Shown here in pieces: positions 4,954 through 8,842 of a stretch of 36,351 nucleotides of DNA (positions are counted from its first letter, which is position 1; every line of letters begins with the position of its first letter). The notes under the pieces were generated by a model. It had not been told where the DNA came from. It saw nothing but the letters and a program-made list of their open reading frames with translations, and searched no databases. A program made the translations under genes and the position numbers. Where the stretch lies: the NCBI GenBank assembly GCA_016844605.1, contig JAENJD010000004.1, forward strand, positions 1 to 36,351, in the 5' to 3' direction. Source of the DNA: Steroidobacteraceae bacterium. Its GTDB lineage: Bacteria; Pseudomonadota; Gammaproteobacteria; Steroidobacterales; Steroidobacteraceae.

Positions 4954-7170
4954 ATGCACCGGCACGACCTCCTCGACTCGCTGAACGACGCCCAACGCGC
5001 AGCCGTTTCGGCGCCGCTTGCCCCGGTACTGGTGCTTGCGGGGGCAGGCAGCGGCAAGACACGTGTGCTGACGCATCGCGCCGCCTGGCTGATCCGCGAG
5101 CACGGTGTGTCGCCGCACGGATTGATGGCCGTCACCTTCACAAACAAGGCGGCTGCCGAGATGCGCGGACGCATCGAGGCACTGCTGGACATGCCCGGTG
5201 GCGCGCTGTGGGTCGGCACATTCCACGGCATCGCCCATCGGCTGTTGCGCCGTCATTGGCGCGAAGCAGGCCTGCCGCAGTCCTTCCAGATCCTCGACGA
5301 GGAAGATCAGCACCGGCTCGTGCGCAAGATCATCCGCGAGCAGAATCTCGACGAGCAACGCTGGGTCCCACGCGAAGTACAGGGTTTCATCAACGCCCAC
5401 AAGGACGAAGGCCGGCGCGCCAAGCGCCTGGACGACCGAGGCGACCCGACGCGCCAGCAGCTGATCAGGCTCTACGAGCAGTATCAGCAGCGTTGCGAGC
5501 AGGTCGGTGTCGTGGATTTCGCCGAATTGCTGCTCAGAAGTTTCGAGATCCTGCGCGACGTCGCCGATCTCGGCGCGTATTACCGCGAGCGCTTCCGCCA
5601 CCTGCTGGTGGACGAGTTCCAGGACACCAATGGCGTCCAGTATGAATGGCTCAAATTCCTGGCGGGAAAGCCCGGCATGCCGTTCGTGGTCGGCGACGAC
5701 GACCAGTCCATCTACCGCTGGCGCGGTGCGCGCGTCGAGAACATGCAGCACTTCCGCAGGGATTTTTCGGCAACCGTCTACAAGCTCGAGCAGAACTACC
5801 GCTCGACACCCGTGATCCTCGCCGCCGCCAACGCGATCATCGCGAAGAACACCGATCGCCTGGGCAAGGAGTTATGGACCGCGGCCGAGGGCGGCGAGCC
5901 GATCCGCGTCTACGCCGCATTTAACGAGCGCGACGAGGCCGACTTCGTGCTCGAGCGCATTCGCGAACACCAGCGTAAGGGCCTGCCGCTAGCCGCGGCG
6001 GCCGTGCTGTATCGCTCCAATGCCCAGTCGCGCGCCTTCGAGGAGGCGCTGATGGCGGCCCGCATTCCGTATCGTGTCTATGGCGGGCTGCGGTTCTTCG
6101 AGCGCGCCGAGATCAAGGATGCGCTCTGCTACCTTCGCCTGACCCAGGTGCGCGGCGATGACCTGTCCTTCGAGCGGGTCGTCAACCTGCCCACGCGCGG
6201 CATCGGCAACGCGACCATCGACCAGTTGCGCGCAGCTGCAAAGGAAAAGGGCCAGACATTGTGGGATACAGGTCAGGCCCTGCTGCCAACGCTGCCGGCG
6301 CGCGCGGCCGGCGCCCTGAAGGGATTCTTCGCGCTGATCGATCGCCTCGCCGCCGAGATTGCGGAACTGCCGCTGCACGAACAGGTGCGCGTGGTCATCG
6401 AGAACTCGGGTCTGCGCGCCCATCATGCGCGCGAGAAAGACAACAAGGGCGAGGCGCGTGTCGAGAACCTGGACGAACTGGTCAATGCAGCCGAGGGCTT
6501 CGCCCCGGAGAATGACGACGGCCTCGCGCCACTACCCGCGTTCCTCGCTCACGCCACGCTCGAATCCGGCGAGACCCAGGCCGCGACGGGGATCGACTGT
6601 GTGCAGTTGATGACATTGCATGCAGCGAAGGGCCTCGAGTTCCCGACCGTGTTCATCGTCGGGCTGGAAGAGGGCTTGTTCCCGTCGGAACGCTCAGCCT
6701 TCGACGCCGACAAGTTGCCCGAGGAGCGGCGGCTTTGCTACGTCGGCCTCACCCGCGCGATGCAGCACCTGTACCTCACGCATGCGGAGAGCCGGCGCAT
6801 TTTCGGGCATACGTCCTACCGTGACCCGTCGCGTTTCCTTGCCGAATTGCCGCCGGAAGCGATCGAAGAGGTCCGGCCCAGGATTTCTGTCAGCCGGCCG
6901 CTCTACACCGCCCCCGGACCGGCCATCGTCCGTCGCGGTGCGGAAATCGGCAGCCCGTCGCTGCAACGGCGGTCAGGCGCTGCGCCCCCGCCAGCCGGAG
7001 AAGACATGCCCATGCACCTCGGCGCCCGCGTGCGCCATCCGAAGTTTGGTGAGGGCACAATCCTGCGCTTCGCGGGCAATGGGGATAACCGCCAGGTGCA
7101 CGTCAACTTCGAGCAGGCCGGCCAGAAGTGGCTGATGTACTCGCTGGCGCGGCTCGAGCAGATCCGCTGA
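4954..7170 (+). CDS. uvrD: DNA helicase II (UvrD/PcrA-type SF1 helicase)
   Basis: LNDAQRAAVSAP, AGAGSGKTRVLTHR Walker A, VDEFQDTN, DDQSIYRWRGA, LMTLHAAKGLEFPTVFIVGLEEGLFP; UvrD C-terminal domain. Confidence 0.95.
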   Translation: MHRHDLLDSLNDAQRAAVSAPLAPVLVLAGAGSGKTRVLTHRAAWLIREHGVSPHGLMAVTFTNKAAAEMRGRIEALLDMPGGALWVGTFHGIAHRLLRRHWREAGLPQSFQILDEEDQHRLVRKIIREQNLDEQRWVPREVQGFINAHKDEGRRAKRLDDRGDPTRQQLIRLYEQYQQRCEQVGVVDFAELLLRSFEILRDVADLGAYYRERFRHLLVDEFQDTNGVQYEWLKFLAGKPGMPFVVGDDDQSIYRWRGARVENMQHFRRDFSATVYKLEQNYRSTPVILAAANAIIAKNTDRLGKELWTAAEGGEPIRVYAAFNERDEADFVLERIREHQRKGLPLAAAAVLYRSNAQSRAFEEALMAARIPYRVYGGLRFFERAEIKDALCYLRLTQVRGDDLSFERVVNLPTRGIGNATIDQLRAAAKEKGQTLWDTGQALLPTLPARAAGALKGFFALIDRLAAEIAELPLHEQVRVVIENSGLRAHHAREKDNKGEARVENLDELVNAAEGFAPENDDGLAPLPAFLAHATLESGETQAATGIDCVQLMTLHAAKGLEFPTVFIVGLEEGLFPSERSAFDADKLPEERRLCYVGLTRAMQHLYLTHAESRRIFGHTSYRDPSRFLAELPPEAIEEVRPRISVSRPLYTAPGPAIVRRGAEIGSPSLQRRSGAAPPPAGEDMPMHLGARVRHPKFGEGTILRFAGNGDNRQVHVNFEQAGQKWLMYSLARLEQIR

Positions 7171-7183
7171 CGGCGGCGCATCG

Positions 7184-7275
7184 GGCGCCCGCGGGATCCG
7201 GCGGGGTTTCTCGCTCGCAAACTCCGCCGGAACTTACGAGTTTGCTCGCGAGAACCCCGCCACCTCGCGGGCGCC
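7184..7275 (+). repeat. Structured hairpin repeat, copy A (~92 nt)
   Basis: Outer stem GGCGCCCGCG (7184-7193)/CGCGGGCGCC (7266-7275); middle stem GGCGGGGTT-CTCGC/GCGAG-AACCCCGCC; inner stem GCAAACTC (7217-7224)/GAGTTTGC (7238-7245). CTCCGCCGGAACTT (7222-7235) spans the apical loop. Confidence 0.85.
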
Positions 7276-7322
7276 AGTAGCGGCAGCGCCAATTGCGTGC
7301 CCGCACGACCGGTAGCGCCACA

Positions 7323-7411
7323 CCCGGCGTGCGAGGTGACGGGGTGTCCCCGAGCGAAGCATAAAGTTCCGGCGGAGCGAGGGGACACCCCGTCGGATCC
7401 CGCACGCCGGG
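7323..7411 (-). repeat. Structured hairpin repeat, copy B (~89 nt, inverted relative to copy A)
   Basis: Outer stem CCCGGCGTGCG (7323-7333)/CGCACGCCGGG (7401-7411); inner stem ACGGGGTGTCCCC (7339-7351)/GGGGACACCCCGT (7381-7393). Loop contains AAGTTCCGGCGGAG (7364-7377), exact reverse complement of the copy A loop motif. Confidence 0.85.
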
Positions 7412-7452
7412 GATGACCGCCGCTGTTCGCACGGTCGGCATTCCGGCGCTGC

Positions 7453-7460
7453 GCTAGAAT
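7453..7460 (+). promoter_or_regulatory. Putative -10 box (GCTAGAAT) 8 nt upstream of trkA ATG
   Basis: GCGCTAGAATCCGAGGCCATG; same motif and spacing as at acs and uvrD. Confidence 0.5.
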
Positions 7461-7468
7461 CCGAGGCC

Positions 7469-8842
7469 ATGAAAATCATCATTCTCGGCGCCGGCCAGGT
7501 CGGCAGCACGGCGGCCCAGCAGCTGTCCCGCGAACAGGTCAACGACGTCACCGTGGTCGACACCCGGGACGAAGCCCTGCGCGACCTGCAGGACCGGCTC
7601 GACATCCGCACGGTGTCCGGTAATGCCGCGCACCCGGCGGTGCTCGAAGCCGCGGGCGGCGCCGGTGCCGACATGATCGTCGCGCTGACGAGCAGCGATG
7701 AAGTCAACATGATCGCCTGCCAGATCGCCTGGACAATGTTTCGCACACCGACCAAGATCGCGCGCATCCGCTCCGGCGACTATCACCACCGTCCGGAACT
7801 CTTCGGAGACGCCGCGATCCCCGTGGACCTCGCCATCAGCCCCGAGCAACTGGTCACCGACTACGTCGAACGGCTGATCCGCTACCCGGGCGCGCTGCAG
7901 GTGCTCGATTTCGCCGACGGCCGCGTGCGTCTCGTCGGCATGCGTGCACTGAAGGGCGGCAAGCTGGTCGGCCACCAGTTGAAGGAGCTGCGCGCGCACA
8001 TACCGAACCGCGAGGTACGCGTCGCCGCGATCTACCGCGACGGGCAGAATGTGAAGCCCGGAGGCGACACGATCATCGCCGAGCACGACGAGGTGTTCTT
8101 CATCGCCGCGCGTGACGACATGCGCACGATGATGAAGGAACTGATCACCGAGGAAGCGCCGGTGCGGCGCGTCGTCATTGCAGGCGCCGGCAATATCGGT
8201 TTCCGGCTTGCACGCGCCCTCGAGGATCGCGCCCAGGTCAAGCTCATCGATCGCAGCCCCGAGCGCTCGCGTCGCGCCGCGGAAACGCTGCGCAACACGC
8301 TGGTGCTGACCGGCGACGCAGCCGACGAAGAGCTGCTGCTCGAGGAGAACATCGACGACACCGACGTGTTCGTCGCGCTGACCAACGCCGAGGAGGCGAA
8401 TATCCTTTCCGCGATGCTCGCGAAGCGCCTCGGCGCGCGGCGCGTGATGGCGCTGATCAACAAGCCCTCCTATGCCGAGCTGATGGAAGGCGGCAAGATC
8501 GACATCGCGATCTCCCCGCAGACCGTCACGATCGGCGCGCTGCTCGCGCATGTGCGCCGAGGCGACGTGGTGCGCGTGCATTCACTGCGCCGTGGTGCGG
8601 CCGAGGCGATGGAGGCGATCGTCCACGCCGACAGCCGCAATTCGCCGGTCGCCGGCAGGCGCATCGACCAGATCGATCTGCCGGAAGGAACGACCATCGG
8701 TGCAGTCGTGCGCGGCGAGCAAGTCATGATGGGGCACCATGACACGGTCATCGAAGCGGACGATCACGTGATCCTGTTCCTGACCGACCGCCGTCACGTG
8801 GAGGATGTAGGCCGGCTGTTCCAGGCCGGCTCGCGCGCATGA
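7469..8842 (+). CDS. trkA: Trk system potassium uptake protein TrkA
   Basis: Two TrkA_N/TrkA_C repeats (MKIIILGAGQVGSTAA; RRVVIAGAGNIGFRLA); directly followed by trkH. Confidence 0.95.
   Translation: MKIIILGAGQVGSTAAQQLSREQVNDVTVVDTRDEALRDLQDRLDIRTVSGNAAHPAVLEAAGGAGADMIVALTSSDEVNMIACQIAWTMFRTPTKIARIRSGDYHHRPELFGDAAIPVDLAISPEQLVTDYVERLIRYPGALQVLDFADGRVRLVGMRALKGGKLVGHQLKELRAHIPNREVRVAAIYRDGQNVKPGGDTIIAEHDEVFFIAARDDMRTMMKELITEEAPVRRVVIAGAGNIGFRLARALEDRAQVKLIDRSPERSRRAAETLRNTLVLTGDAADEELLLEENIDDTDVFVALTNAEEANILSAMLAKRLGARRVMALINKPSYAELMEGGKIDIAISPQTVTIGALLAHVRRGDVVRVHSLRRGAAEAMEAIVHADSRNSPVAGRRIDQIDLPEGTTIGAVVRGEQVMMGHHDTVIEADDHVILFLTDRRHVEDVGRLFQAGSRA

Follow-up and report, generated by a model that had tools for sequence, protein, structure and literature searches.

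The window analysed here, a stretch of 36,351 nt of Steroidobacteraceae DNA, carries two large hairpins in the spacer between uvrD (4954–7170, plus strand, an ORF of 738 aa) and trkA (7469–8842, plus strand, an ORF of 457 aa), both genes being named from their own sequence without a family search. Copy A, of subtype A, lies on the plus strand at 7184–7275 and copy B, of subtype B, on the minus strand at 7323–7411, separated by a linker (7276–7322). On the plus strand, copy A begins with stem P1 (7184–7195/7264–7275, GGCGCCCGCGGG/CTCGCGGGCGCC), which has 12 bp including an invariant G·T, and continues with a 4 × 2 internal loop ATCC/AC (ATCC 7196–7199, AC 7262–7263), stem P2 (7200–7214/7248–7261; 14 bp with one bulge), a 2 × 2 loop TC/TC (7215–7216 with 7246–7247), stem P3 (7217–7224/7238–7245; 8 bp) and an apical loop of 13 nt, CGCCGGAACTTAC (7225–7237). 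Copy B follows the same plan in the opposite orientation, with a shorter P3 and the loop CCGCCGGAACTTTAT. The unpaired or edge parts common to both are CGGGATCCG, CTCCGCCGGAACTT and CACCTCG, and it is the 3′ (ACCTCG) sides of A and B that face each other across the linker.

Alone, each hairpin folds at about −72 kcal/mol with z about −7 (−7.4 for A, −6.8 for B), and none of 200 shuffles was equally stable. The whole spacer (7171–7468) is strongly stable as well, at −184.7 kcal/mol (z −6.9), and pairing of A with B, which the preliminary description had considered possible, is seen in the centroid fold. Just 5′ of trkA, at 7452–7462 on the plus strand, lies GCGCTAGAATC, which varies by one or two bases at most across genomes G001–G006 and is kept upstream of trkA both with and without repeats. 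It is the probable −10 region, which would place the repeats upstream of the promoter core.

The preliminary description had read A and B as copies of one structured repeat whose stem differences are compensatory, and both points hold. The two copies have a common apical loop, internal loops and covarying stems, and in an alignment of 19 copies 93% of the cells are paired and 21 of the 34 pairs are altered on both sides; when the partner was slid by 1–3 columns as a control, pairing fell to 37–50%. Its invariant 14-nt loop was only partly right: the apex is conserved, but its CTC is part of stem P3, and the loop itself differs between copies (GCCGGAACTT, CCAGAACTT, GCGGGAACTT). In the alignment the apical loop is conserved better than any other element of the superfamily, and CGCCGGAACTTAC is found exactly in 26 of the 73 hairpins tallied, a filtered set, as unfiltered scans also picked up unrelated hairpins. 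These 73 have a mean of 42 pairs and loops of 9–13 nt. The core of the superfamily is the TC/TC mismatch plus the apical loop, and the ATCC/AC loop is the mark of subtypes A and B; several hairpins of G002 are without it and are near-perfect palindromes.

Further copies exist well beyond the window, contrary to the outcome that the preliminary description had named as refuting its reading. Searching the host genome at the DNA level gave 11 matches, and the pattern GGATCCG..GGAACTT..ACCTCG gave seven exact matches there, against none for the reversed control pattern; it also occurs in three other species of the host genus and in one genome of another genus. With a covariance model we found 10 matches in the host genome, the best being copy A (115.9 bits, E 7e-24), and copy B was matched with 90.3 bits on 7319–7414 (minus strand). 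Ten of 217 genomes of the family Steroidobacteraceae were matched, including all seven of the host genus, with 4–17 copies per genome, and two of genus g24, with 12 and 17 copies, and in a sample of 397 genomes of the order the matches were confined to the host genus and g24. Roughly 590 further genomes of the family and order gave a single match, a weak one, outside the two carrier genera. This match, in genus g19 (G184, L235 1590–1669), has a different apical loop and is probably an unrelated hairpin. A pattern scan of the wider genome contigs returned 61 stretches, which is about the chance expectation in order of magnitude, and only four of them, from G003 and G004, were treated as real. 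Near-identical 74-nt cores are found at many unlinked loci. Rfam gave no match at the gathering score and, below it, only chance miRNA and riboswitch matches far under the cut-off; the repeat was not found in plasmid and phage libraries, and no earlier description of it was found in the open-access literature. The repeats are one family and not a chance similarity, and this family is previously unlisted and confined to two genera of Steroidobacteraceae.

The two hairpins of the window had been called a head-to-head pair, which is better worded as a pair with its 3′ sides facing. Thirty of 31 neighbouring copies have this same orientation, with the ACCTCG sides facing each other as in A and B. 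The gaps of the other pairs are mostly 4–48 nt, and when all copies were read with their flanks, a strong copy was usually accompanied within 50 nt by a weaker partner with a different stem. The facing pair is the normal unit of the family. P1 was considered as a pre-existing target palindrome and has a locus-specific look in G000, but it is shared among the G003 copies and the linkers are partly conserved, and therefore P1 belongs to the unit. At two loci of G004, C14 (L205) and C13 (L208), the repeat hairpin is directly preceded by what may be a further imperfect palindrome (CTTCATTGTGCACAGACTTG and CTTCATCATTCACGGACTTG, respectively), perhaps a terminator or a second type of repeat.

The content of individual sites differs between species. 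Between imuB and dnaE2 the site is empty in G002, where the stop of imuB and the start of dnaE2 overlap, and occupied in G000 (A+ C−), G003 (C+ A−), G006 (A+) and G004 (a single related hairpin); in G001 (L257) it is rearranged, with a chimeric remnant of two hairpins. This chimera is as expected from a deletion between inverted copies. A 3–4 nt CATC repeat at the site is only suggestive of a target-site duplication, and no clean one was seen. Between uvrD and trkA, G000 has A and B, G001 has B only, G005 has a truncated B and G003 has two other hairpins, and there is none in G002, G004 or G006. The notion of a structured mobile repeat put forward in the preliminary description agrees with the many genomic copies and the compensatory differences between them, and it fits the empty imuB–dnaE2 site and the differences in content and orientation between species.

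As to gene context, 30 of the 73 hairpins lie between convergent and 24 between codirectional genes, 11 lie inside ORFs and at most four are divergent, in a crude classification that labelled the codirectional imuB–dnaE2 site as divergent. The copies avoid promoters. Their gene neighbours are housekeeping genes, and among 89 neighbouring proteins no recurrent transposase family appears in the 25 commonest families listed. We point out that copies are found in or beside repair or replication genes, namely uvrD, imuB–dnaE2 (L012 4263–4453), polA and a gyrA/parC-type gene (L009 234–323); some REPs have likewise been reported in or beside DNA repair and replication genes (PMC3733652).

Two genes carry copies in frame, polA for DNA polymerase I and trpC for a tryptophan enzyme. 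One copy is found in trpC of G000, G005 and G001. The G001 trpC copy (L214 1563–1661) has a partial internal duplication in which GGATCCCGGCCGTGGCGCGC is repeated, giving a longer protein insert with the frame kept. In polA of five species the copy lies in the linker between the 5′-3′ and 3′-5′ exonuclease domains; in G001, G004, G005 and G006 (L287–L290) it encodes ASERVSSGGASEP or close variants, and in G003 (L291) a hairpin at the same place has the opposite orientation and encodes SLAPPELTRSLAGS, the gene staying open. The G003 arrangement could be either an inversion or an independent acquisition, and whichever its origin, conservation applies neither to a single RNA strand nor to a single peptide. 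The linkers that contain the hairpin exceed those without it by only about 5–7 residues, so that replacement instead of simple insertion is possible there. The two orientations in polA form a natural experiment: the hairpin, turned round, re-codes the protein linker and leaves the gene open.

The copies are dispersed, organised as facing pairs, and lost and rearranged between species, and one site is empty. We consider it likely that A and B together are one paired unit of a family of mobile DNA palindromes that are interspersed and non-autonomous and occur in two genera only, and the one clear empty site suggests that the unit inserts. It is best read as operating in the manner of the REP, REPIN and RPE repeats, with stems of about 40 bp and with neither a GTAG/CGTC tag nor a linked RAYT.

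Alternatively, a host RAYT (an IS200/IS605-type HUH transposase) could be moving a REPIN population, in which case the repeats would be genuine REPs whose stems are unusually long. Facing doublets, hairpins, a preference for the 3′ side of genes, intragenic units and compensatory stem changes are all as in REPs and REPINs (PMC3116915; PMC3733652), and Y1 transposase genes are present in four of the seven genomes. We nevertheless find this option rather unlikely, as the six Y1_Tnp loci have no repeat closer than 1.5 kb, by motif or covariance model, the repeat carriers G001, G005 and G006 (75–87% complete) gave no Y1 match, and the terminal tags are not above the expectation from shuffled flanks: GTAG is near the left end of 9 and the right end of 6 of the 73 hairpins against 14.7 expected, and CGTC near 27 and 24 against 31.6. 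Since the tags are absent, no RAYT lies beside the repeats and the stems are about 40 bp long, we file the family under interspersed palindromic mobile repeats and not as REP.

A functional structured RNA family, 3′-UTR or intercistronic and acting for example in mRNA stability or termination, that happened to spread would explain the strong covariation between copies, their placement downstream of genes, loops conserved in a manner typical of an RNA motif, and the presence of the repeat inside the imuB–dnaE2 operon in five of six species. The mutation patterns speak against it, with the RNase P RNA of these genomes as control in both a paralogue and an orthologue comparison. In the paralogue alignment, two-sided and one-sided changes number 76 and 9, against 138 and 125 in similarly diverged RNase P. 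Between orthologues (at trpC, C14, trkA-B, dnaE2-A and polA) single transitions yielded 16 G·U and 14 A·C, the latter breaking the pair (8 and 8 with polA left out), compared with 58 and 0 when RNase P was counted over these species pairs, all these being small numbers from species pairs with shared branches, with both structures taken mostly from RNAalifold. Neutral DNA sequence has, by strand symmetry, a G·U to A·C ratio of 1:1. RNA-type constraint is lacking at the fixed loci, and the structured RNA family offered as an option in the preliminary description is not supported as one under strand-specific selection. Two-sided Watson-Crick changes between orthologues amount to 7 against about 0.9 by chance, an excess compatible with a DNA palindrome being corrected from arm to arm, or with renewed selection for pairing in the DNA. 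The idea of an RNA family is further opposed by orientation, which is reversed for the paired unit between two species at imuB–dnaE2 and for the polA copy of one species, and by the result from Rfam; we regard it as very improbable. The family shows that a mobile DNA hairpin can produce strong covariation between its copies, which is usually taken as evidence for a structured RNA, and the transition counts provide a clean natural contrast between stem conservation at the DNA and at the RNA level.

We give equally little credence to a process without any transposase, in which palindromes arise, grow and homogenise by replication template switching and recombination with covariation as a mutational by-product, for although two-sided changes above chance without a G·U bias and the in-place inversions, truncations and chimeras at imuB–dnaE2 and trkA agree with it, it could not alone place near-identical cores at many unlinked loci or fix the orientation of nearly all pairs.

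We return to the paired mobile palindrome. The propagated entity would be a DNA hairpin defined by the apical loop CGCCGGAACTTAC and the TC/TC mismatch, plus the ATCC/AC loop in subtypes A and B, and its stems would need only to be complementary. We suggest that the unit spreads in the form of single-stranded or cruciform DNA and that a putative enzyme acting in trans reads the loop and mismatches. Once inserted, the unit may drift, be trimmed to one hairpin and sometimes be inverted, the stems staying complementary through arm-to-arm copying by template switching, and it would survive where insertion harms little, that is, at 3′ ends, in spacers and in flexible protein loops. A bolder proposal, which we put forward only tentatively and think unlikely on balance, is that a putative recombinase or transposase of these genera identifies the single strand, once folded, through its apical loop and mismatch bubbles, whatever the sequence of the stems, transposes the paired unit in one piece and can invert it at its site, which would make these repeats a new, structure-addressed class of mobile DNA and not a REP variant. 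Since small genomes hold few copies, comparison of carrier with non-carrier genera should lead to the mobilising enzyme. What the family adds is a repeat whose host range is very narrow and whose structural signature is clear.

Among known systems, integron attC sites are imperfect palindromes of about 100 nt that are recognised as folded single strands, by structure over sequence. The present repeats resemble them in size, imperfect pairing and the precedence of structure, but they are without GTTRRRY/RYYYAAC boxes at the base and lie outside cassette arrays. Like MITEs, they are short dispersed stretches of non-coding DNA with inverted repeats, for which movement in trans is presumed; MITEs differ in having a constant terminal inverted repeat, whereas here the ends are the variable part, and no parental IS was found. 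The palindromic elements of Rickettsia (RPE) sit in frame in unrelated protein genes, where they are tolerated in loops and linkers (PMC3733652), and the in-frame units in trpC (three species) and polA (five species) are alike in this respect; the clade and sequence are other ones, however, our copies are mostly intergenic pairs, and the polA copy occurs in both orientations. CGTC-type repeats are without a known transposase (PMC3733652), and they and RPE have a terminal CGTC, a stem of 8–9 bp and a loop of 4–5 nt, as opposed to the far longer stems and 9–13 nt loops seen here. The closest likeness in organisation is to REP, BIME and REPIN sequences, imperfect palindromes with unpaired internal bases that form inverted doublets with spacers of 20–100 nt, are placed in convergent and codirectional intergenic regions, have intragenic copies often in replication or repair genes and show compensatory stem changes (PMC3733652; PMC3116915). 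The present family has in common with them the doublets, inverted and with a short spacer and an almost uniform facing orientation, the convergent placement, the intragenic copies and the compensatory stem changes; it differs in stems of about 40 bp instead of the 5–13 bp of REP, and in an apex that is conserved above a base that is variable.
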